The translations under genes were made by a program, and so were the position numbers. From contig JAKEEG010000008.1 of assembly GCA_022616555.1 (NCBI GenBank), positions 1 to 36,432 of the forward strand: a stretch of 36,432 bases of DNA. The letters run 5' to 3'. Positions within the stretch are counted from its first letter, which is position 1. The number at the start of each line of letters is the position of its first letter. Shown one piece after another: positions 20,500 through 34,684 of this stretch. The notes beneath the pieces are model-generated. The model saw nothing but the letters and a program-made list of their open reading frames with translations, had not been told where the DNA came from and searched no databases. Source of the DNA: Ignavibacteriota bacterium (GTDB lineage: Bacteria; Bacteroidota; Ignavibacteria; UBA10030).

Positions 20500-21141
20500 T
20501 TAACTGCGGATGTTACTACCAATCACAGCATTCACGTGGTGGAGAATCTCCACGCTCTTCTGGTCAACTGAAGTCAGAATCGATTTTGCTTTCAGCGATG
20601 TGTCGTGAACGAAACTGTCGTCTTGAATTGTGCCGAGGTTGATGCGTACGTTCAGCGCAGCACTGATACAGGCGGCGCGGAGCATTTCCGCGGCAACCCC
20701 GGCATCGGAAACAGAGTTGACATTCCCTTTTGTTGCCACCTCGAGCGCCAACGGGAGCGTGCGTTCGCAAAGTTCCATCACCTGTAGCGGCACGAGCGCG
20801 GCGGATTTCGTCGCTTCCTGAATTGCACCGCTGCGAAAATTCTTTTGGTCGTCGTCGTCCTTCGGCAGTGAGAAAGCCCGCATCACGGAGTTGAATGCCT
20901 CGGTATCCTTCTCGATCAAGCGGGTAAACTCTGCCCGAATATCTTCTGCTTGCCTGAGCAGTTGTTGCATTTCCGCTTCAACGTCTGCATATTTCTTTTT
21001 TCCTACCGTAAGCCTGCATACCATGGATGTCAATCCGGCGCCCAGCGCGCCGGCTAAGGCGGCAATGCTGCCGCCGCCGGGTGCGGCTGAGTTGGAGGCG
21101 ACTTCGTCTAAAAATCCTGAGACGGTTTTTTCGATAAGCAT
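20500..21141 (-). CDS. fchA: Formimidoyl-THF cyclodeaminase (methenyl-THF-forming)
   Basis: Converts 5-formimino-THF to 5,10-methenyl-THF and ammonia; last step of the formiminoglutamate route. It corresponds to the C-terminal domain of mammalian FTCD. Signatures: SNSAAPGGGSIAALAGALGAGL (about residues 17-38), LTVGKKKYADVE, EKDTEAFNSVM, ALEVATKGNVNSVSDAGVAAEML and ALNVRINLGTIQD. The start chosen is ATG 21141 because GGAG lies 6 nt upstream; a TTG four codons earlier overlaps that site. 213 residues. It is the last gene of the minus-strand hut operon, 55 nt after ftcD. Confidence 0.92.
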   Translation of the reverse strand: MLIEKTVSGFLDEVASNSAAPGGGSIAALAGALGAGLTSMVCRLTVGKKKYADVEAEMQQLLRQAEDIRAEFTRLIEKDTEAFNSVMRAFSLPKDDDDQKNFRSGAIQEATKSAALVPLQVMELCERTLPLALEVATKGNVNSVSDAGVAAEMLRAACISAALNVRINLGTIQDDSFVHDTSLKAKSILTSVDQKSVEILHHVNAVIGSNIRS

Positions 21142-21196
21142 GTTATACTCCAATGATGAAACCTGCAGGTTTTGAAATCCTTGCAGGTTTTGGTTA

Positions 21197-22231
21197 TCAC
21201 AATAAGTATTCGATCACTTTCTTCTTGGGGTCGAACGGCTCAAGCTGGCTCAATCCCAAGCCTTCGACGGCGAGATCGACCAGCTCCTGTTCCGTGTGTT
21301 TGCCTGAGTTTGCTTTGCGCGAGGAATAAAATTCCCCTGCCATCAAGAGAGCTTTGAGCGGAGTAAGGCCAACGATTTCACTGCCCGTTGCCTCGAGCCC
21401 AAGCGTACGCGCTTCCTTGTTCACTTCTTCGAATGCTTTATGCGGAGGAGTTTGTTCGTAATCGACCAAATTAATGGAGACCTGCGCGATGTGGGCGCGT
21501 TCCAGCAGCACGCCCATCGCTTTCACCGCTTTGAGTGAGCCGGGGATAATGATTTTTTCGCCCTTCTCGTTTTTCATCGGGTTGCCCGCCTCGTCTTTTT
21601 TCGGCCTGCCGCTTTCACGGATGCGTAGGGCAATTTCATGAGCGAGCGATGAATCCGGCGTGTTGAGATTCACATTGTAGGCAATAAGGAATGTACGCGC
21701 ACCCGTTACTGTGGCTCCTGACTTTGCGTTAAATGTTGCCTCGCCGTAGTCCGGTTTCCACTTTGGGTCTTTGAATTTTTCTGACAAACCTTCGTACTCG
21801 CCTTTGCGGATGTTGGCAAGATTTTTCCGCTCAGGCTTTTGTGCGGCATATTCGTACAGATACATGGGAATATTGAGCTCACTTGCTGCGCGCTTGGCAA
21901 ATGTGTGAGCGAGCTTTGCGCAATCATCCATCGTAACGCCGCTGATGGGTACGAATGGAACGACATCCGTCGCACCCAGGCGGGGATGCTCACCTTTGTG
22001 CTTTGTCATGTCGATGCGCTCGGCGGCGGTTTTCATCGCTTGAAACGCAGCTTCAACAACCGAGTCCGGCTTGCCGACGAATGTCACGACGCTACGGTTG
22101 TAGTCTTTGTCTGGTTCCACGCTGAGCAATTTCACATCGGCGACGCGGCGTATGCTTTCTGCTATGCCATCGATCGTGTGTTGGTCTCGTCCCTCGCTGA
22201 AGTTGGGAACGCATTCGACAATTTTACGCAT
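21197..22231 (-). CDS. ftcD: Glutamate formimidoyltransferase
   Basis: Transfers the formimino group of formiminoglutamate (HutI product after hydrolysis) to THF, releasing glutamate. It equals the N-terminal domain of mammalian FTCD. VECVPNFSEGRD (5-16), catalytic His82 in KHKGEHPRLGATDVVPFVPI, and TGARTFLIAYNVNLNT are all family hallmarks. The 344 residues form a complete transferase without a fused cyclodeaminase, which is encoded by the next gene. Its ATG (22231) follows the DUF429 stop with no gap (TAAATG), suggesting translational coupling. Confidence 0.95.
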   Translation of the reverse strand: MRKIVECVPNFSEGRDQHTIDGIAESIRRVADVKLLSVEPDKDYNRSVVTFVGKPDSVVEAAFQAMKTAAERIDMTKHKGEHPRLGATDVVPFVPISGVTMDDCAKLAHTFAKRAASELNIPMYLYEYAAQKPERKNLANIRKGEYEGLSEKFKDPKWKPDYGEATFNAKSGATVTGARTFLIAYNVNLNTPDSSLAHEIALRIRESGRPKKDEAGNPMKNEKGEKIIIPGSLKAVKAMGVLLERAHIAQVSINLVDYEQTPPHKAFEEVNKEARTLGLEATGSEIVGLTPLKALLMAGEFYSSRKANSGKHTEQELVDLAVEGLGLSQLEPFDPKKKVIEYLL

Positions 22232-22849: not shown

Positions 22850-24093
22850 TAGAATTCTAAAATGACACCGCGTTTGATAACGGTGTTTACATGGTTTACG
22901 CCAAAATGATAGGCAAGGTACTGGTAATTTGGGATATCGTAAAGCACAATGTCGGCTTGCTTTCCGGTTTCGATACTGCCGACAGTGTTTGACATTTTGA
23001 GCGCCGCAGCGCCATTGAGTGTGCAAGCGGCGATGGCTTCCTCGGGCGTCATGTTCAGCTGGGTGCAGGCGAGTGTCATCATCATCGGCACGGAAAATGA
23101 CATGCACGAGCCGGGGTTGAAATCCGTTGAGATGGCAACGGGCACGCCCGCATCGATGAGCTTGCGAGCGGGAGCGTATGAGTGATTCAAAAAGAAGGAC
23201 ACGCCCGGGAGCAACACCCCCACTGTGCCGCCGGCTTTCAGTGCCCGAATGCCGGCGTCGTTGATGTGTTCCAGATGGTCGGCGGAAACGGCTCTTAACT
23301 CGCCGGCGAGTGTGGAGCCGCCCGACGGCGCCAGCTCGTCCGCATGGATTTTCAGGTCAATACCCAGCGAGCGGGCTTTTTCGAGTATCTTTCTACTCTG
23401 CCCAACGGAAAAATATCCCGACTCGCAGAACACATCGCAGAAGCTGGCAATCTTGCGTTTTGCAACGTAGGGAAGCATGCGCTCGCACACGAACTCAACG
23501 TACTCGTCGGGCTTTTGTTTGTATTCCGGTGGGATCGCATGTGCGCCGAGGAATGTCGGCATGACAGTCATGTAATGCTCTTTTCTCAGCTCGTTGATGA
23601 CGTCCATCATCTTGATTTCGGATTCTTCCTCCAAGCCGTAACCAGATTTAATTTCGACTGTCGTCGTACCGTGTTTCAGCATATCATCGAGCCGCTTGCT
23701 CGCCAATTTCTTAAGGTCTTTTTTTACTGCTGCCCGTGTCGCTTTGACGGTACTGAGTATTCCGCCGCCTTGCTCGGCGATTTGCTGGTACGTTTTTCCT
23801 GCAGCGCGCATGGCGAATTCATTCTCCCTGCTGCCGGCAAATACGAGGTGCGTGTGACAATCGACGAACCCCGGCAAGGCGACCAACTCAGACGCGTCGA
23901 CAATATGGGCATCGTCAGAAAGTGCGGTCGTAAATTTCGCGTCAGCTCCTATCCAACGGAAATGGCCGTCTTCTATCAGAACGGTGGCGTTTTCTATGAC
24001 GCCGATGTCTCTCATCTCAACGCCGGTTTTACACTGTTTCCCGTTGCTTGCGACAGTGACAAGTTGTTTAATATTTTTGAGAAGAAGCTGCAT
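22849..24093 (-). CDS. hutI: Imidazolonepropionase
   Basis: Hydrolyses 4-imidazolone-5-propionate to N-formiminoglutamate; metal-dependent amidohydrolase. Metal motif FVDCHTHLVFAGSRENEF (about residues 75-92), substrate loop KSGYGLEEESEIKM, PTFLGAHAIPPEYK, KIHADELAPSGG, SADHLEHINDAGI and STDFNPGSCMSFSVP. The C-terminal TGKQADIVLYDIPNYQYLAYHFGVN matches HutI. 414 residues. Its ATG overlaps the stop of the methyltransferase gene (TAATG), and its stop overlaps the DUF429 start in the same way. Confidence 0.96.
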   Translation of the reverse strand: MQLLLKNIKQLVTVASNGKQCKTGVEMRDIGVIENATVLIEDGHFRWIGADAKFTTALSDDAHIVDASELVALPGFVDCHTHLVFAGSRENEFAMRAAGKTYQQIAEQGGGILSTVKATRAAVKKDLKKLASKRLDDMLKHGTTTVEIKSGYGLEEESEIKMMDVINELRKEHYMTVMPTFLGAHAIPPEYKQKPDEYVEFVCERMLPYVAKRKIASFCDVFCESGYFSVGQSRKILEKARSLGIDLKIHADELAPSGGSTLAGELRAVSADHLEHINDAGIRALKAGGTVGVLLPGVSFFLNHSYAPARKLIDAGVPVAISTDFNPGSCMSFSVPMMMTLACTQLNMTPEEAIAACTLNGAAALKMSNTVGSIETGKQADIVLYDIPNYQYLAYHFGVNHVNTVIKRGVILEF

Positions 24094-24977
24094 TACGTTT
24101 TTTGTGCTTCGATGAAGAAATAAGCTCCTGTCATGCCTAAAGAGAGTAGTTCAGTATCCATCTCGTGAAGCCACTTCGACGCCTGATAACGCCACGCGTG
24201 CGGCAAGCGCACTTTCGGAGCGAGGTAATACCAAAACGGACAGAACGAAAATTGCTCCACAATGGTGAACCGCTCTCGAATTTTTTTAATGATCGAGTGC
24301 TGTGAGATTTCCTCAAACGGTGATTCGGGATGCAAGCCTGCTGTGGATCCCGACTCCAGTGAGTTTCTCTTCTTTGCTTCGGGCGCGAGGAATGTGCTGA
24401 GCCGGTTTCGCAACGCCCATTTTTCAGTGTACGGTTTGTATGTCAGTAAGAGAGCGTACAACGCCGCGGCGAGGGCCTTTCGCATTCCAGACATCCCGAC
24501 GTAATCGATGACGATAAGCCTGCCGCCCGGTTTCAGCGCATTCTTTGCCTCGTCCAGCGCGTGGTCGAGTTTATAAATATGGTGCAACGCGTCATGTGCG
24601 ACGACGCAGTGAAATTTCTGTCGAGGCAGATCGATAATATTTAGGTCGCCGACATTGAACGTCGCGCCGTGCGTCAGGGTATGAAGTTCAGCACGCTGTT
24701 TTGCCCGCTGTATGCGCTCCGGACTTAGGTCTAATGCCGCCACCTTGTGTCCACGGCGCGCAAGCTCGACTGCAAGATGCCCTTCACCACAGCCAAGCTC
24801 AAGCACGTCTTTGCCGGCGGCGTCGATGCGTGCAAGGAAATGGCGATATTCTTTCCCGAAAAATATGTCAAACAGCCGGTCGTCGTTCCAGATTTGCGGG
24901 TTGCGCGGGTCAGGTTGTACGCTGCCCCAATGCCTTGCTTCCTGTTCGATGAGTTGCCGGTAGCGTTCGTTCTTCAT
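24093..24977 (-). CDS. Class I SAM-dependent methyltransferase
   Basis: 294-residue methyltransferase. Start chosen at ATG 24977 (MKNERYRQLIEQEA), 8 nt after the VOC stop; the longer frame lies over the VOC gene end. SAM motif I VLELGCGEGHLAVELA (about 65-80), acidic ALDLSPERI, motif DALHHIYKLDHALDEAKNALKPGGRLIVIDYVG. The C-terminal third is helical and ends in a hydrophobic LGMTGAYFFIEA. No specific substrate can be assigned. It is coupled by TAATG to hutI, so it is produced with the histidine pathway, but methylation is not part of that pathway. Confidence 0.85.
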   Translation of the reverse strand: MKNERYRQLIEQEARHWGSVQPDPRNPQIWNDDRLFDIFFGKEYRHFLARIDAAGKDVLELGCGEGHLAVELARRGHKVAALDLSPERIQRAKQRAELHTLTHGATFNVGDLNIIDLPRQKFHCVVAHDALHHIYKLDHALDEAKNALKPGGRLIVIDYVGMSGMRKALAAALYALLLTYKPYTEKWALRNRLSTFLAPEAKKRNSLESGSTAGLHPESPFEEISQHSIIKKIRERFTIVEQFSFCPFWYYLAPKVRLPHAWRYQASKWLHEMDTELLSLGMTGAYFFIEAQKT

Positions 24978-25429: not shown

Positions 25430-25636
25430 TCAAGATGATGAAGTGCAGCGCTGCTGCGCTGGATCTGATTCTTCAAACCCGTCGCACGAGAGGACGGGGA
25501 GGCGCGGGTATTTCGGAAAGCGCGGGTCGGATTCCGAAAGCGTGCAGAGAATAAATGTGCTGCCGCGTGGGTTTTCGATCACGCGTGCGTTGGCACAGTG
25601 AGAGCAGAGGCCGGGGTTGGGAGTAACATGTTGCAT
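25430..25636 (-). CDS. Small Cys-rich protein coupled to hutU
   Basis: 68-residue protein of unknown function. Its ATG (25636) overlaps the hutU stop by one base (TGATG), which fixes the start. Four cysteines, CSHC (11-14), C near 31 (FILC) and C near 51 (VLSC), suggest a metal site. The core ARVIENPRGSTFILC and DPRFPKYPRLPV looks like a conserved motif set; I recall similar short proteins in other phyla but cannot name a family with certainty. The last 12 residues are polar and probably disordered. Possible roles: zinc-binding accessory or regulator. Function not assignable. Confidence 0.65.
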   Translation of the reverse strand: MQHVTPNPGLCSHCANARVIENPRGSTFILCTLSESDPRFPKYPRLPVLSCDGFEESDPAQQRCTSSS

Positions 25637-27306
25637 CACTTCATCATCGGCACTTTTACGTTCCACTGCTTTGCATTTTTGATGGCGCGGTCGTAGCCGG
25701 CGTCAGCGTGGCGCACGATGCCCATGCCAGGGTCGTACGTGAGTACGCGTTCAAGCCTGCGCTCGGCATCTTTCGTGCCGTCGCAGACGACGACCATACC
25801 GGCGTGAATCGATAAACCGATGCCGACCCCTCCGCCATGGTGGACGCTCACCCAGCTTGCTCCGCCCACCGCGTTGAGCAGCGCGTTGAGAATGGGCCAG
25901 TCGGCAATCGCATCGCTGCCGTCGCGCATTTTTTCCGTTTCTCGGTTTGGCGAGGCGACACTTCCGCAATCCAAATGGTCGCGGCCTATCACAATCGGCG
26001 CTTTGACTTCCCTGCTCGCGACAAGCTGGTTGAAAATCTTGCCCATCTTCGCCCGCGCGCCGTAGCCCAGCCAGCATATGCGTGCCGGCAAGCCCTGGAA
26101 CGCCACCTGCTTCTGCGCTTTTTCGATCCAATTGCAGAGTTGCTTGTCTTCGGGGAATGTCTCCATCACCGCGCGGTCGGTGCGGTAGAGGTCTTCCGGG
26201 TCGCCAGAGAGCGCCGCCCAGCGGAAGGGTCCTTTGCCGTCGCAAAACAACGGACGAATGAACTCCGGCACGAAGCCCGGAATATCGAATGCCTTCTTCA
26301 CGCCGTGTGCGAGCGCCTCGCCGCGGATGTTATTGCCATAGTCGAACACCACCGCGCCTTTCTGCTTGAGCTTTAACATGCCTTTGACATGCTCGGCTAT
26401 GGAATCCTGAGCCATTTTGACGTACTTCTTGGGATTTTTTCTGCGTAACTCGAGGGCTTTGGCATACGACAATCCTGCAGGCACGTAGCCATTGAGTGTG
26501 TCGTGCGCGGAAGTTTGGTCGGTGACGATGTCTGGAAGAAATTTCCCCGCGGCAATTTTCGGGATGATCTCCGCGGCGTTGCCGAGCAACCCGACGGAGA
26601 GCGGCTGTCTGTGTTCCTTTGCCCGTTTGATATTGGCGAGCGCATCATCAAGACTTTCCGTCATTGTGTGGAGGTATTTCGTCTCAAGGCGGCGCTGGAT
26701 GCGTGCGCGGTCGACCTCAATAACGAGACAAGCGGCGCCGTTCATTGTTGCGGCGAGTGGCTGTGCGCCGCCCATGCCGCCGAGTCCGGCAGTGAGTACG
26801 AATCGACCCTTAAGCGAGCCGCCGAAGTATTTTTCCGCGCAGGCGGCGAATGTCTCGTACGTGCCTTGCAGAATGCCTTGCGTGCCGATGTAGATCCAGC
26901 TGCCGGCAGTCATTTGTCCATACATCGTCAGTCCCAAGCCTTCGAGCCGTCGGAACTCGTCCCACGTCGCCCACTGAGGCACGAGCATCGCGTTGCTGAT
27001 GAGCACGCGTGGGGCGTCGGTGTGCGTCTTGAAAATTCCAACGGGTTTGCCGGACTGGACGAGGAGCGTTTCGTCGTTTTCGAGATTTTTCAGGCCTCTG
27101 ACGATGGCGTCGTAGCATTCCCAGTTGCGCGCGGCTTTGCCGGTGCCTCCGTAGACGATAAGCTCCTGCGGCTTCTCGGCAACGTCGGGGTCGAGGTTGT
27201 TCATCAGCATCCGCAGGGCGGCTTCTTGCTGCCAGCCTTTGCAAGTTAACTGTGTGCCGCGGAGTGATTTTATGACTGTCGAGCGAGTAGAATTTTTATT
27301 TGACAT
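25636..27306 (-). CDS. hutU: Urocanate hydratase
   Basis: Adds water to urocanate to give 4-imidazolone-5-propionate; uses tightly bound NAD+ as electrophile. 556 residues, normal. Signatures: [17 protein letters not shown] (about 46-62), NAD loop [57 protein letters not shown] with the conserved Cys, and [20 protein letters not shown] at 27306, 31 nt after ridA, with no clear Shine-Dalgarno. It shares an operon with hutI and ftcD; hutH is 4.6 kb away on the other strand. Confidence 0.97.
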
Positions 27307-27337: not shown

Positions 27338-27823
27338 TTAGTATTTGCTTCTAAAAGCTATAGCAGCGATTTCCACTTTCGCATTTCGAGGGAGATTGGA
27401 GACTTCCACCGTCGTGCGGGTAGGGTAGCTGCCCTCTTCAAAAAAGCCGCCGTAGATGAGGTTCATCTTCGCAAAATCGTTGATGTCTTTCAAGAATACC
27501 GAACATTGGACGATGTGGCTGGAGTCGTATCCAGCTTGCTGGAGAATGGCCATCATGTTTGTGAGCGATTGCCGCGTCTGGCTCTCGATGTCATCGCCGG
27601 CAAGCTCGCTGGTGACGGGGTCCATGCCGATTTGTCCGGAGACGAAGAGGAAATTTCCCACCTGCACGGCGGGACTGTAAGGCCCGATGGTTTTCGCGTC
27701 GGTGATGTACGTGCGCTCTACGGCTATGGAGAGCTCATCGCGTACAAGGGCGCGGATTTCGTCTTCCGATTTTCCGCAGCCGAGAATTGAGAATAACAAC
27801 ACAAAAAGTAACATGTTTTTCAT
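27338..27823 (-). CDS. RidA-family protein with a lipoprotein signal
   Basis: RidA/YjgF-family domain (2-iminobutanoate/2-iminopropanoate deaminase type) on a predicted lipoprotein. The N-terminus MKNMLLFVLLFSILGCGKS is a short signal with lipobox ILGC (Cys16). A linker (17-40) follows, then the RidA fold from TIGPYSPAV to the end. The Arg of RTTVEV and the Glu of KVEIAAIA align with the Arg105 and Glu120 substrate-binding residues of E. coli RidA; the next family Glu is Ala here. AAGGAT lies about 9 nt before the ATG. RidA normally works in the cytoplasm on reactive enamines and imines, so membrane anchoring is unusual. First gene of the hut operon, 31 nt before hutU. Confidence 0.85.
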   Translation of the reverse strand: MKNMLLFVLLFSILGCGKSEDEIRALVRDELSIAVERTYITDAKTIGPYSPAVQVGNFLFVSGQIGMDPVTSELAGDDIESQTRQSLTNMMAILQQAGYDSSHIVQCSVFLKDINDFAKMNLIYGGFFEEGSYPTRTTVEVSNLPRNAKVEIAAIAFRSKY

Positions 27824-29108: not shown

Positions 29109-30485
29109 TCACTTTTCTTCGAGATTGTACTGCTGGATTTTGGTATAGAGCGTTTTGAGGCTGATGCCGAGCACTTTGGATGCCATGCTTTTATTCCATC
29201 CCACCATCTTCAACACGCCGTGAATGTGTTTAATTTCGATGTCGCGCAGTGTAACCGCACTGCCGACCATCTGATCTCCGCTTCCTGCTGCACGTTGCTC
29301 TCCCGCAGGACGCATGCCAATCGGGAGGGCGAGGTCATCAATACGGATTGCATTGTTTTGGCACAGAATCGCCGCGCGCTCTATGACGTTTTCCAACTCA
29401 CGGACATTTCCGGGCCACTCGTATTTTGTCAACAGATCCATCGCTTTCGTGTCGATGCGGATCGGTTCTTTCGTGCGGACGCGTTTCTTCAGGAAATGGT
29501 CAACGAGCAGGGGAATATCTTCTTTTCGTTCGCGCAATGGCGGCATATTGAGCGTGATGACATTCAGGCGGTAGAGTAAATCCTCGCGGAAGCGCGTTTC
29601 AGCAACCTCGGTTCTAAGGTTCTTGTTCGTCGCGGAAATAATCCGCACGTCCGCATGGAGATTCTTATTGCCGCCCACGCGGCGATATTCGCCGGTCTGC
29701 AAGAAGCGCAGGATCTTGGGCTGAATTATAATGCTGATTTCGCCGATCTCATCGAGGAAGAGCGTCCCACCGTTGGCAATTTCCACCAATCCCTGCTTTG
29801 TCGCGATGGCGTCGGTGAACGCGCCTTTCTCGTGGCCGAAGAGCTCGCTTTCGATCAGCGTCTCAGGAATCGACGCGCAATTGAGCGCAACGAACGGATA
29901 ATCTTTATGTAAGCTGTTCTTGTGGAGGAAACTTGCGACGAGCTCTTTTCCCGTGCCGCTTGGTCCCTGGATGAGCACGGCGGAATCGGTTGGTGCGACT
30001 TTCGTGCAGAGCTTGAGGACTTCGAGAAATGCAGGGGCCTGACCGACAATCTCCGACGCGTATGCGTGGCGCGCAAGTTCGCTCTTGAGCGCTTTATTTT
30101 CGATTGTCAGTCGTTTGCGTTCGAGCGCCCGGTCAATCGTGGCGATCAATTCTTCTGCAGGGTGAGGCTTCGTGAGGTATGTGTACGCGCCCATCTGCAT
30201 GCACTCCACTGCGCGCTTAATGTCGGCGACGCCCGTGAGCATGATGACTTGCGTATCGAGGTAACGGTCTTTGATGAATTTTAGGACTTCCATGCCGTCG
30301 ACGCGCGGCATTTTCATATCCAGGAGAACGAGGTCGTACCCTTTTATCTGGAGCTTGTTGATGGCGGCAACGCCGTCGTTCGCGGTTTCAACGGCATAAC
30401 CTTCATGACCGAGGAGTGTCTTGATGAGGTCGAGGAAGCTGTCTTCGTCATCTACTGCGAGAATGGAAATTCCCTGTTGAGCCAT
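29109..30485 (-). CDS. NtrC-family sigma-54 response regulator
   Basis: 458-residue bacterial enhancer-binding protein: REC domain (1-120), AAA+ domain (about 145-375) and Fis-type helix-turn-helix (about 415-455). REC has the acidic pair D12-D13, phosphoacceptor D56, T84 and K106. AAA+ has Walker A GPSGTGKE (174-181; usual form GESGTGKE), GAFTDA (221-226) where most members have GAFTGA, Walker [10 protein letters not shown], and arginine-finger FREDLLYRL. The HTH is [19 protein letters not shown]. It follows the REC-kinase gene by 24 nt, so the two probably form a pair. Its target promoter was not found; no clear -24/-12 box was seen upstream of hutH or ridA. Confidence 0.93.
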
Positions 30486-30509: not shown

Positions 30510-31616
30510 TTACCGTACCGGGAGTGCGAAGAAGAACGTCGTTCCCTTTCCGGCTTCGGACTCGACCCAAATTTTCCCGTTATGAGCTTCGACAATGCGC
30601 TGGCAAATAATGAGACCGAGTCCGGTTGTTTGTTTCTTATCTTTCGAATCGGTGACGACGTTGCGATAGCGATTGAAAATGAGCGGCAGCTCTTCCTTCG
30701 GAATCCCTTGTCCCGTATTGAACACGGACACCATCAGGAAATTTTGGGGCTGCTGGCCTTCTTCGACGACGAGCGCTACCTTACGCGCTTGCACCACGAT
30801 GGCGCCTTGAGCCGGCGTGTACTTTACCGCGTTGCTCAAGAGGTTGTGCATCACCTGTTCGATTTTTTGAGAATCGTACTCAATTGGGGGCAGGCCTTCT
30901 TCGGAAGAGATGTCTAGGGTAATTTTATTAGACTGTATCGGGACACGGAATTCTTGCGTTATTTTCTGAACAGTGTCGAAGATATTACCGATGCCCTCAT
31001 TGAGGCGCACGCGGCCACCTTCGAGCTTTGTCAGGTCCATCATGTCGCTCAGCAGGGTTATAACCTTGTCGATAGAGTTGACCATGTAGCCCATCAGCTC
31101 TTTCTGGTGGTCGGACAGCGGACCTGCCATGCCCTTCATCAAGTAACCGATGCTTTGCTTGAGTCCAGAAATAGGATTGTGCAGGTCGTACAGTAATCGA
31201 GCGGTGTGTTCGGCTTGCAGTTGCCGGATGCGCTCTTCTGAGTCGCGTTTTTTGATAAGCCCGCGCAGTTGGGGTACGAGCTGGTCGAGGTCCACAGGCT
31301 TCGTAAGATATTCCTTTGCGCCAAGCTTCATCGCTTCCACAGCCATGCTCACATCGCTCATGCCGGTCATCATCACGACTTCTGTTTGGTTGGAATTCTT
31401 TTTGATGAACCGGAGCACCTCAAGCCCGTTCGCGCCGGGCATCTTGATGTCGAGCAGGGCTATATCGAAATCCTTGCCCTGGACTTTTTTAATCGCCTCC
31501 AGTCCATCTCCTGCTTGTTCGACGTTGAAGCCCTCGTCCCCAAGCCACGCGGAGATAGTGCCGCGGAGCGAGTCTTCGTCGTCGGCAATCAGTACGTTGA
31601 TTTTCTCGTCAGCCAT
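30510..31616 (-). CDS. REC-histidine kinase hybrid with atypical H-box
   Basis: 368 residues: N-terminal REC domain (1-122; D12-D13, phosphoacceptor D56, T84, K106), a short coiled linker, HisKA-like helices (about 135-200) and a HATPase domain (250-368). No membrane segment, so cytoplasmic. The H-box reads LLYDLHNPIS: aligned with the usual HDLRTP, Tyr143 occupies the phosphoacceptor His position and His146 sits three residues later. The N-box HNLLSNAVKY is intact; G1 is FNTGQGI with Asn300 where Asp is usual; G2 is TGLGLIICQRIVEAHNG. The DNA supports the reading (TAC, then CAC). It may be a pseudokinase, or may use His146. It is encoded upstream of the NtrC-type partner. Confidence 0.9.
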   Translation of the reverse strand: MADEKINVLIADDEDSLRGTISAWLGDEGFNVEQAGDGLEAIKKVQGKDFDIALLDIKMPGANGLEVLRFIKKNSNQTEVVMMTGMSDVSMAVEAMKLGAKEYLTKPVDLDQLVPQLRGLIKKRDSEERIRQLQAEHTARLLYDLHNPISGLKQSIGYLMKGMAGPLSDHQKELMGYMVNSIDKVITLLSDMMDLTKLEGGRVRLNEGIGNIFDTVQKITQEFRVPIQSNKITLDISSEEGLPPIEYDSQKIEQVMHNLLSNAVKYTPAQGAIVVQARKVALVVEEGQQPQNFLMVSVFNTGQGIPKEELPLIFNRYRNVVTDSKDKKQTTGLGLIICQRIVEAHNGKIWVESEAGKGTTFFFALPVR

Positions 31617-31921
31617 AATGATGAGGAACAGTTTGTAATTGACGGTGCGGCTGAAATCTACGTGGAAGTCGACCTGTGGCTGGTATCCCCCGATGCGTCA
31701 TAGGTCAACGGAGATAATAACGAGATTCGGCTGAAAAGTCAATGAGTATCTCTTGTCAAAACAACTCTCATTCGTGCGGTCAGGACTTACGTCCTGACCG
31801 AAAAGCCATTAGTGTCAGGAGGTAACTCCTGACACCACCCAGAGTATCCTTTGCCATTCATATTGAATTTCAAGCGATGCTCTGCTACATTGAAGGACAT
31901 TCATCCTTAACCAAAAGGTCT
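31617..31921. promoter_or_regulatory. Divergent intergenic region with hutH leader
   Basis: 305 nt between the kinase (minus) and hutH (plus). It contains two strong hairpins (31777-31800 and 31812-31835, listed separately). The AT-rich segment around 31855-31875 is the likely promoter area for hutH, but I cannot assign boxes. No -24/-12 sigma-54 promoter is evident. AAAAGG at 31914-31919 is the probable hutH ribosome site. Confidence 0.4.
31777..31835. repeat. Inverted pair of TCAGGA-GTAA hairpins upstream of hutH
   Basis: Hairpin 1: CGGTCAGGAC (31777-31786), loop TTAC, GTCCTGACCG (31791-31800). Hairpin 2: GTGTCAGGAG (31812-31821), loop GTAA, CTCCTGACAC (31826-31835). Both have perfect 10-bp stems. 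Loop 1 is the reverse complement of loop 2, so the copies are in opposite orientation and differ by compensatory C-G/G-C changes at the loop-closing pair. Confidence 0.85.
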
Positions 31922-33487
31922 ATGGCGGCTTACGTTCTTGATGGAGATTCCCTCTCCATTTCAAAACTCGCAGAAATTGTCTATCGCAAAGCTCCGATTG
32001 CCCTTGCCCCGCGAGCGCGTAAGAGCATGGCGGCATCTCGCAAGCTCGTTGAAGATTGGCTGCGCGATGGAGAGACGATTTACGGCGTGACGACGGGATT
32101 CGGGGAATTCAGCTCCGTTCGCATCAGTGCGGCGGATATTCAACGGTTGCAAGAGAATCTTATCGTCAGCCATTCTGCCGGAGCTGGCGATCCGTTGCCT
32201 CGCGATATAGTGCGCGCGATGATGGTGTTGCGTGTCAACGCGCTGGCGAAGGGGTACTCCGGTATCACGTTGCCGACAGTCGATTTGCTGGTGAAGATGG
32301 TAAATCGCAACATCATTCCGGTTATTCCCTCGCAAGGCTCGGTTGGTTCCAGCGGCGATTTGGTGCAACTCGCGCATTTAGTATTGGCGATGATGGGGCG
32401 CGGACGGGTGTGGAGTAACGGCGGGAGATCTGAGGTGCGGGGGAGAGGTGTTGATTCGTCGATTGCGTTGAGAAAAAATAATCTTAAGCCGGTGAGTCTT
32501 ACGGCGAAGGAAGGTATCGCGCTCATCAATGGTACCCAGATGATGACGGCATACGCCGGGCTTGCCGTGCAGAAAGCGAATCAGCTTTGCGCGATAGCCG
32601 ATATCGCCGGAGCTCTCAGCGTAGAAGCGCTTCGTGGAAGCGATACGCCGTTCGATGAGCGCATCCACAAGCTGCGTCCTTATAAGGGCCAATTGACTGT
32701 TGCGGGGAATTTGCGGAAGATGATGCAGGGGAGCGAGATCCGCGAATCCCACCGTTACAACGACCCGCGCGTGCAGGATGCATACTCGCTGCGGTGTATT
32801 CCGCAGGTGCACGGAGCGTCACGCGATGCAATCGACTACGTGTATGACAAAGTGAGTATCGAAATCAACTCAGCCACCGACAATCCCCTGATTTTTCCGA
32901 AAGACCGGGCGCATCTCGAAGGCGGCAACTTTCACGGTCAACCGATAGCGCTGGCGATGGATTTTCTCGCCATCGCGCTTTCGGAGTTGGCAAATATCTC
33001 CGAGCGGCGCATTGAGCGGCTGGTGAATGGGTCACTCAGCGGTTTGCCGCGCTTCCTGACGGCGAACGGCGGGTTGAACTCCGGTCTGATGATCGCCCAA
33101 TACACCGCCGCATCGATTGTCTCAGAGAACAAAGTGCTTTGCCATCCGGCGAGCGTGGATTCGATTCCCACTTCAGCGAATCAAGAAGACCACAACAGCA
33201 TGGGCTCCATCGGCGCTCAGAAGGCGTGGCGCGTGCTGAAGAACGCTCAGACCGTACTCGCGATTGAATTGCTCTGCGCGTGTCAAGCGCTTGACTTTAC
33301 GCGTGAGTTGAACGGTGGCAAACCAATGAAAGCAGGCGATGGTTCGGAGGCTGTATATCAATTTATTCGCAAACGTGTCAAGCATCTGGATGAAGATAGG
33401 GTGTTGTATGATGATATTCAGAAATCGTTGGGAATGGTGGAGGATGGAAGTGTGTTGGAGACTGTGAGGAGTTTGAAAATAGGGTAG
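31922..33487 (+). CDS. hutH: Histidine ammonia-lyase with SSG cofactor site
   Basis: First step of histidine breakdown: eliminates ammonia from L-histidine to give urocanate. Start ATG 31922 gives 521 residues, normal for the family; a further 15 residues from ATG 31877 are not family-like. VYGV-type IYGVTTGFGEF (53-63), SHSAG with the His typical of HAL/TAL, QGSVGSSGDLVQLAHL (138-152), SATDNPLIF, and PASVDSIPTSANQEDH with the Glu typical of HAL. The MIO cofactor normally forms from Ala-Ser-Gly; here it is Ser143-Ser144-Gly145 (codons TCC AGC GGC at 32348-32356), and the usual DLAPLAH is DLVQLAH. The nearby hut genes support histidine as substrate. Confidence 0.93.
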   Translation: MAAYVLDGDSLSISKLAEIVYRKAPIALAPRARKSMAASRKLVEDWLRDGETIYGVTTGFGEFSSVRISAADIQRLQENLIVSHSAGAGDPLPRDIVRAMMVLRVNALAKGYSGITLPTVDLLVKMVNRNIIPVIPSQGSVGSSGDLVQLAHLVLAMMGRGRVWSNGGRSEVRGRGVDSSIALRKNNLKPVSLTAKEGIALINGTQMMTAYAGLAVQKANQLCAIADIAGALSVEALRGSDTPFDERIHKLRPYKGQLTVAGNLRKMMQGSEIRESHRYNDPRVQDAYSLRCIPQVHGASRDAIDYVYDKVSIEINSATDNPLIFPKDRAHLEGGNFHGQPIALAMDFLAIALSELANISERRIERLVNGSLSGLPRFLTANGGLNSGLMIAQYTAASIVSENKVLCHPASVDSIPTSANQEDHNSMGSIGAQKAWRVLKNAQTVLAIELLCACQALDFTRELNGGKPMKAGDGSEAVYQFIRKRVKHLDEDRVLYDDIQKSLGMVEDGSVLETVRSLKIG

Positions 33488-33598: not shown

Positions 33599-34684
33599 AT
33601 GAAACTCAAAAAAGATTTTCTTCGTTCTCTACCTAAGGTGCTTCTCCACGACCATCTCGACGGGGGGCTGAGGCCGCAGACGGTTATTGATCTCGCTAAG
33701 GAGTACAAATACAAAAAACTGCCGATGATGGACGCGGGGGAGTTAGCCGAGTGGTTCCACCGCGGCGCGAACAGAGGCAGTCTGCCGTTGTTTTTGGAGG
33801 GCTTCGAGCACACATGCGGGGTGATGCAGACCGAAGAATCGCTCGAGCGTGTTGCGTACGAGATGATGGAGGACATGAAAAACGACGGCGTGGTGTACGT
33901 GGAAACGCGGTTCGCTCCCGTTTTTCATACCGACAAGGGATTGCATCTTGAAACGGTTGTCAAATCCGTGCTCAAAGGCTTAGAGCGCGGGAAGAAGGAT
34001 TTCGGCGTGCAGTACGGCCTAATCCTCTGCGCGCTGCGGCATATGAAGCCGACGGTAACGCAGGAGGTCGCCGAGCTTGCAGTGGATTTCCGCAATCAAG
34101 GCGTGGTGGGATTTGACCTCGCTGGCGAGGAAGGCGGCTACCCGCCGAAGAAGCACGTGGATGCGTTTCACTACATCCAGCGCGAGAATTTTAACATTAC
34201 AATACATGCCGGAGAAGCGTTCGGCAAGGAATCGATTTGGCAGGCGATACAATGGTGCGGCGCACATCGCATCGGGCACGCCACGCGGCTGGTTGAGGAT
34301 ATGAAGATCAAGAACGGAAAAGTCCTTAATATGGGCGCGCTCGCCCAGTTTGTTCTGGATAAGCGCATACCGCTCGAAATTTGTCTGACGAGCAATTTGC
34401 ACACGGGCGCCATCAAAAAGCTGGAAGATCATCCGTTCTGGATTTATTACCAGTATAAGTTTCGTGTCACGCTCAATACGGACGACCGGCTGATGAGCAA
34501 CATTACGATGACCGACGAATACCAGGCGGCAGTTGAGACGTTTGGGTTGAAACTTGACGACCTCGAAAAAATCGCCATTAACTCGATGAAGAGCGCGTTC
34601 ATACCGTACAAGCAGCGCATCAAGATTATTTACGATGTGCTGAAGCCGGGTTACGCGAAGGCAAAGAAGCAGTTGGCAAATTGA
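33599..34684 (+). CDS. add: Adenosine deaminase
   Basis: Zinc-dependent deamination of adenosine to inosine (purine salvage). 361 residues. Motifs: LHDHLDGGLRP with the first two zinc His ligands (about 16-26), GFDLAGEEGGYP, HAGEA with the third His and catalytic Glu, IGHATRL, PLEICLTSNLHTG and TLNTDDRLMSN with the zinc Asp. It matches the adenosine/AMP deaminase superfamily; adenosine rather than AMP or methylthioadenosine as substrate is family-based inference. ATG 33599 follows an AT-rich stretch (TATTATAGATATAG) that may hold a promoter. It is not obviously co-transcribed with hutH. Confidence 0.92.
   Translation: MKLKKDFLRSLPKVLLHDHLDGGLRPQTVIDLAKEYKYKKLPMMDAGELAEWFHRGANRGSLPLFLEGFEHTCGVMQTEESLERVAYEMMEDMKNDGVVYVETRFAPVFHTDKGLHLETVVKSVLKGLERGKKDFGVQYGLILCALRHMKPTVTQEVAELAVDFRNQGVVGFDLAGEEGGYPPKKHVDAFHYIQRENFNITIHAGEAFGKESIWQAIQWCGAHRIGHATRLVEDMKIKNGKVLNMGALAQFVLDKRIPLEICLTSNLHTGAIKKLEDHPFWIYYQYKFRVTLNTDDRLMSNITMTDEYQAAVETFGLKLDDLEKIAINSMKSAFIPYKQRIKIIYDVLKPGYAKAKKQLAN

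Follow-up and report, generated by a model that had tools for sequence, protein, structure and literature searches.

A receiver-fused pseudo-histidine kinase conserved in a family of Ignavibacteria: a candidate binding switch

Introduction

What can a histidine kinase core do once the residue expected to accept the phosphate is missing? The question is raised by a gene within the window—the whole 36,432-nucleotide stretch of Ignavibacteriota contig JAKEEG010000008.1 analysed here—the product of which, termed the REC-kinase below, joins a receiver to DHp and CA domains and reads LLYDLHNPIS across its H-box (residues 141–150). The original prediction offered three readings: a pseudokinase sensing through its receiver, a kinase using a displaced histidine, or a phosphatase-only partner of the NtrC-type regulator encoded downstream. 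To our knowledge, few pseudo-histidine kinases have been characterised, DivL being the best known, and no published work on the REC-pseudokinase family described here was found among the literature matches listed. The gene and its parts are as follows.

30510..31616, minus strand: REC-DHp-CA protein of 368 aa, predicted pseudo-histidine kinase (ORF and Pfam; single orthologue in 31 of 32 family genomes)
31269..31595, minus strand: receiver (REC, Response_reg), residues 8–116, with D13, D56, and K106 kept (Pfam, E 1.4e-30)
31014..31208, minus strand: HisKA/DHp, residues 137–201, without the phosphoacceptor His (Pfam, 25.5 bits against a cut-off of 26.9)
30516..30875, minus strand: HATPase_c (CA), residues 248–367 (Pfam, E 3.3e-27)
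31188..31190, minus strand: Tyr143 (TAC) at the phosphoacceptor His position, Phe in 7 of 31 orthologues (translation, orthologues, phmmer)
31179..31181, minus strand: His146 (CAC) where Arg is usual, Arg in 1 of 31 orthologues (translation, orthologues)
30717..30719, minus strand: Asn300 at the G1-box Asp position in 31 of 31 orthologues (orthologues, phmmer)

The acceptor position and the ATP-binding boxes

The HisKA stretch of the REC-kinase scored 26.9 bits in the genome-wide search, which is the threshold itself, and no PAS domain was present among the Pfam matches of the protein, its N terminus being the receiver. HK853 (2c2a) was aligned by phmmer without gaps across the H-box (E 7e-24), with Tyr143 opposite His, Asp144 opposite Glu, His146 opposite Arg, Asn147 opposite Thr, and Asn300 opposite the Asp of the G1 box. 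This alignment and the TAC codon bear out the claims that tyrosine replaces the phosphoacceptor histidine and that a histidine occupies the usual arginine position; the receiver is likewise as complete as had been stated. The N and G2 boxes of the ATP-binding site had been described as intact, and this holds for the window protein, in which they are present together with the HATPase_c domain; they are eroded in some orthologues. The asparagine at the G1 position had been missed.

An AlphaFold2 monomer model built from eight sequences (pLDDT 83.8, pTM 0.58) predicts one continuous helix over residues 110–160, which carries the H-box, and a second DHp helix over residues 169–199; residues 318–330 of the CA domain are modelled with low confidence. 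Among the kinase chains listed in a structural comparison with the model, DivL (4q20) came first with a Z of 22.7 (rmsd 4.3 over 223 aligned residues, model 120–367 on 526–756), tied with ZraS (22.1), and HK853 scored 21.6. The LvrB entry 8vc9 matched the window protein in sequence across residues 52–367.

Conservation among orthologues and control kinases

A single match with an E of 1e-120 or better was found in each of 31 of the 32 family genomes searched, at 68%–81% identity, and the sole genome without a match (G018) is 72% complete. The family set for residue counts was picked by residue and is identical to the set of 31 rows with at least 68% identity. In G022, a 55% complete genome, the copy contains an in-frame TAA near residue 356, and only its open stretch was used. 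A relative on VGWB01000004.1 ('Ignavibacteria bacterium') shares 76% identity.

The alignment of orthologous HisKA regions, proposed as a check in the original prediction, gave Tyr at position 143 in 24 orthologues, Phe in seven, and His in none, the Phe-bearing proteins not being confined to a single tree branch. Position 300 is Asn in every orthologue. A sequencing error or a pseudogene is ruled out, the gene being found in 31 of 32 family genomes and His in 0 of 31. Within the receiver, D13, D56, and K106 are retained by all 31 orthologues, and position 84 is Thr in 30 and Ser in one. The N-box Asn262 is kept in 28 and Gly332 in 21 of the 31.

Two canonical kinases from the same genomes provide the controls. 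The first (29 rows taken from the 31 genomes with a match) keeps His, the G1 Asp, and the Gly332 equivalent in 29/29 and another G2 Gly in 28/29; the second keeps His, the G1 Asp, and the Gly332 equivalent in 26/26. An earlier control candidate (L175), present in only five of the 32 genomes, was dropped. Mean pairwise identity within the pseudokinase family is highest in the DHp domain (0.86), with the receiver at 0.79–0.80 and the CA domain at 0.69. The corresponding DHp/CA values are 0.88/0.81 for the first control and 0.81/0.67 for the second, and eight His-bearing relatives from the order show the reverse of the pseudokinase pattern (DHp 0.52, CA 0.57). The idea that stronger conservation of DHp than of CA might reflect relaxation of the ATPase domain was abandoned, since the canonical controls show it too; only the motif residues differ, and any claim of relaxation is thus limited to them, identity at the whole-domain level failing to tell the cases apart. 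As a CA identity of 0.69 is no lower than the 0.67 of one control, constraint still acts on the CA domain overall, which may bind nucleotide.

Of 184 profile matches, 167 could be read at both positions and 17 were left out. The G1 residue of the 124 His-bearing rows is Asp in 120 and Asn in four; on these sequences, Asn at G1 is rare, yet compatible with His, and is no proof of lost ATP binding.

The window's own genome contains 28 HisKA stretches, 25 of which have His (two of these being identical copies). The remaining three have Thr (contig C48), Arg (contig C1), and, in the window's gene, Tyr. The Thr- and Arg-bearing proteins are L185 (G000:C48:21358-21528) and L188 (G000:C1:33681-33857). 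The identical protein stretches, L181 and L182 (both on G000:C31), lie around 17 kb apart on opposite strands and represent either a recent duplication or an assembly effect.

More distant relatives and the direction of change

A search of the order at E 1e-62 matched 49 of 98 genomes, 31 of these 49 belonging to the family, and a search of the class at E 1e-66 matched 45 of 391 genomes, all in the same order. Outside the orthologue set, His143 is present in 28 of 37 rows. Family f2 has His in three of four rows, with Tyr in L029, while its genus-mate L031 has His; family f3 has His in six of seven, with Leu in L134; and in family f5, three rows of one genus have Leu at position 143. Asp300 is kept in all the closest f2, f3, and f5 rows described. 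A scan of a viral collection returned 21 distant REC or REC-kinase matches of 41% identity or less.

A quick tree of 64 rows was built with columns 143 and 300 left out and four degenerate second tandem copies omitted; the second tandem copy of L036, a fragment, had already been removed by the length filter. The parsimony minimum on this tree is three changes between His and non-His and two between Asp and non-Asp, the second of the latter being represented by two paired rows in which His occurs together with Asn. The f5 Leu group joins the window's family with a support of 94, flagged as two long branches meeting, and hence the loss shared by these groups may be two losses. Change counts by themselves carry no direction; our own reading is that histidine was probably lost.

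Tandem REC-kinase pairs form a separate observation. In L033, L034, L036, L037, and L038, the first copy has His and the second has Y, F, N, F, and D, respectively; in these second copies, of which that of L036 is a fragment, the ATP-binding motifs are degraded where read but the REC is intact. Other tandem pairs (L027, L138, L139, L141, and L142) have His in both copies.

Gene neighbourhood

The REC-kinase gene lies among genes of histidine utilisation, with a regulator gene immediately downstream.

29109..30485, minus strand: NtrC-type sigma-54 response regulator (REC, AAA+, Fis-type HTH), 24 bases downstream (Pfam, NCBIfam)
31877..33487, plus strand: hutH, histidine ammonia-lyase, divergent neighbour (TIGR01225, 675 bits)
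25636..27306, minus strand: hutU, urocanate hydratase (TIGR01228, 937 bits)
22852..24150, minus strand: hutI, imidazolonepropionase, stop-to-stop frame (TIGR01224, 497 bits)
21200..22231, minus strand: glutamate formimidoyltransferase, stop-to-stop frame (TIGR02024, 378 bits)
20503..21213, minus strand: FTCD_C cyclodeaminase-like protein, stop-to-stop frame (PF04961, E 6e-70)
33599..34684, plus strand: adenosine deaminase-family protein, conserved neighbour (PF00962; 11 of 14 family regions)

The NtrC-type regulator occupies the same locus in 30 of the 31 family loci (E 1e-60 or better), and in the remaining one (L004) a REC frame is cut short by the end of the contig. Fourteen family regions of around 20 kb, from among the 31 loci, were compared: all 14 have the regulator, 13 have hutU, 11 have adenosine deaminase, and 10 have hutH. 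The order adenosine deaminase, hutH, REC-kinase, regulator recurs in each of the two f2 regions looked at, the REC-kinase bearing His in L161 and Tyr in L162. In two f3 regions, adenosine deaminase adjoins the REC-kinase and the regulator is absent; two f5 regions have neither.

Gene order, and gene order only, suggests that the REC-kinase controls the NtrC-type regulator and, via the regulator, histidine utilisation. CbrA–CbrB of Pseudomonas, reportedly a two-component system linked to histidine use and with an NtrC-type CbrB, shares that link; CbrA is a transporter-fused kinase, unlike the window protein. RpoN is encoded in the window's genome. A scan of the window for sigma-54 sites gave 15 matches against 19 expected, and in 13 regions upstream of the REC-kinase (the window and 12 of the 14 fetched family regions), the best site was equalled in 9 to 200 of 200 shuffles; neither scan yielded a site above chance.

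Three further features of the locus were observed. The sigma-54 contact loop, GAFTGA in its usual form, reads G-A/S-FTDA in the regulator at 29109–30485 and its relatives. Two palindromes lie between the REC-kinase gene and hutH, at 31778–31799 and 31815–31832, with TCAGGA-N6-TCCTGA in common; the first (22 bases) occurs at eight exact places in its own genome, compared with none for a control pattern, and therefore looks like a dispersed palindromic repeat. Finally, the N terminus of a RidA-family protein (27338–27823) has, by eye, the look of a lipoprotein signal (ILGC), seemingly an unusual feature for RidA.

Docking of the neighbouring regulator

In kinase/regulator pairs, the alpha1 helix of the regulator contacts the DHp domain. 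Going by PDB titles, changes at V13, L14, I17, and N21 of RR468 rewired such an interface. Alpha1 (REC residues 15–28) was compared across 30 family genomes, with the docking positions hand-mapped from RR468. Mean pairwise identity in the neighbouring regulator is 0.42 for alpha1, 0.69 for the rest of the receiver, and 0.35 for the four docking positions; in the pseudokinase's own receiver, the values are 0.75, 0.79, and 0.77. One canonical kinase/NtrC-type pair, present in 26 of the 32 family genomes, gave 0.87 for the regulator's alpha1, 0.72 for the rest, and 0.89 for the docking positions. Measured against this single control pair, the neighbour's alpha1 is without cognate-pair constraint, which is evidence against docking of the kinase or phosphatase type between the neighbours. 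Within the window's family, the pseudokinase receiver and the regulator receiver differ in alpha1. In f2, which comprises four genomes, three of them with His, an FR-F/Y-MLK alpha1 is common to all four regulators and is similar to its counterpart in the f2 REC-kinases.

A binding switch and its rivals

The pseudokinase is the best supported of the three readings first offered, the acceptor and the G1 Asp being lost in 31/31 orthologues while the REC phosphorylation residues are kept. Judged from sequence, histidine kinase chemistry has very probably been lost in the window protein. On balance, we favour a non-catalytic, REC-gated pseudo-histidine kinase acting as a binding switch—DivL-like, with a receiver fused on.

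On this account, a Rec-controlled histidine kinase would have lost its catalytic residues before the family radiated and been kept as a binding switch. Its receiver would obtain phosphate from a small phosphodonor or a different kinase, and the phosphorylated receiver, by analogy with LvrB, might rearrange the DHp/CA dimer together with the signalling helix. No autophosphorylation would follow; the dimer would expose or hide the conserved DHp surface to a partner, as DivL does with DivK~P, the partner being either its own receiver or a third protein. A fuller version can be put forward only tentatively: the kinase may have died on the family stem, freeing the NtrC-type regulator from kinase-specific docking and leaving a DHp domain that answers its own receiver. 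This would amount to DivK and DivL in one chain, of independent origin and with further histidine losses in sister lineages.

In an unlikely but sensible rival, the receiver diverts phosphate from an upstream kinase, as a sink or decoy, and the DHp-CA portion is a dimerising scaffold only. The conserved phosphorylation residues of the receiver suit such a role, as does the FR-type alpha1, followed by ML or similar, that the partner receivers of f2 share. Yet the DHp domain is the most conserved part of the protein, beyond the needs of a mere dimeriser, and the two alpha1 helices differ in the window's own family.

A phosphatase-only role, in which the DHp domain dephosphorylates the neighbouring NtrC-type regulator under gating by the receiver, is also rather improbable; this part of the original prediction emerges weakened. 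The residues that it would need have stood up well: Asp144 (H+1) is kept in all 31 orthologues and position 147 (H+4) is Asn in 30 and Thr in one, as against S, A, G, I, L, or T at H+4 in 12 His-bearing rows of closer order relatives. The regulator gene, moreover, adjoins that of the pseudokinase in 30 of 31 loci. Precedent cuts both ways, at least in those parts of PMC5727384 that are drawn on here: in a figure legend, EnvZ H243A stands for loss of kinase activity and T247A for loss of phosphatase activity, which supports a phosphatase surviving without its histidine, whereas an HxxxT pair is proposed for HisKA phosphatase activity and HK853 H260A shows diminished phosphatase activity. DivL, as described in the cited portion of PMC4211667, is without phosphatase activity. 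Against the same reading stands the neighbour's alpha1, at 0.42 and 0.35 over the docking positions versus 0.87 and 0.89 in the canonical pair.

An unconventional kinase using His146 or His137 is most improbable. Each is kept in 30/31 orthologues, and every orthologue retains at least one of the two. However, His146 is Arg in L024, the family's first branch on the tree, His137 is Tyr in L014, and His170 (kept in 28/31) is Gln in three; no histidine of the DHp domain is invariant among the 31 orthologues, although His345 in the CA domain is, and the G1 Asp is lost. Because one orthologue has Arg in place of His146 and seven have Phe in place of Tyr143, neither displaced-histidine nor phosphotyrosine chemistry can be general. 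Despite the fact that DivL was reportedly first published as a tyrosine kinase, the notion of Tyr143 as a phosphotyrosine acceptor deserves hardly any credence, with Phe found in its place in more than one tree branch. DivL, in the cited portion of PMC4211667, is also without autokinase activity.

Significance

The binding-switch reading concerns a family-wide, single-copy pseudo-histidine kinase with a cis-fused receiver, and the homologues in sister families, mostly His-bearing and some in the same gene block, offer a natural before-and-after comparison. The role of a kinase core unable to pass on phosphate is thereby made testable. Conservation of the partner's docking helix is suggested as a sequence test of whether a kinase-like protein still serves the neighbouring regulator. 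Naming by domain content as a 'histidine kinase' would mislead for the whole family.

Comparison with known systems

A pseudokinase version of ChrS in Corynebacterium is likewise a histidine kinase that serves in the absence of kinase activity; going by the text cited from PMC9491836, it arose in a heme-tolerance setting, unlike the window protein, and the two are likened by function only. The HsfB–HsfA pair of Myxococcus xanthus resembles the window pair in its N-terminal response-regulator kinase and in sharing one operon with an NtrC-like regulator, but HsfB has a conserved histidine and phosphorylates HsfA, as stated in the cited part of PMC9109919, whereas the window protein has no such histidine.

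Closer in architecture is LvrB, the prototype Rec-controlled kinase, which shares the REC-helix-DHp-CA order of the window protein; when its receiver is phosphorylated, a coiled coil forms and the CA domain is released. In the account excerpted from PMC13269768, LvrB has an acceptor (H161) and autophosphorylates once the receiver is phosphorylated; the window protein is without this acceptor.

The nearest functional parallel proposed here is DivL of Caulobacter, a HisKA/HATPase protein that also has Tyr at the phosphoacceptor position. According to the cited portion of PMC4211667, DivL has neither kinase nor phosphatase activity and binds DivK~P; when the Y550H variant is combined with DivK~P and ATP, phosphate accumulates, although back-transfer is not formally excluded. 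Orthology to DivL was judged by PAS domains N-terminal to the DHp domain, and none is among the Pfam matches of the window protein. DivL carries PAS sensors, and the REC protein to which it responds, DivK~P, is a separate polypeptide (PMC4211667, same portion), whereas in the window protein the receiver is fused N-terminally in cis. The window protein differs further in its Asn at the G1 Asp position, in tolerating Phe as well as Tyr at the acceptor position, and in belonging to a different phylum and gene context.
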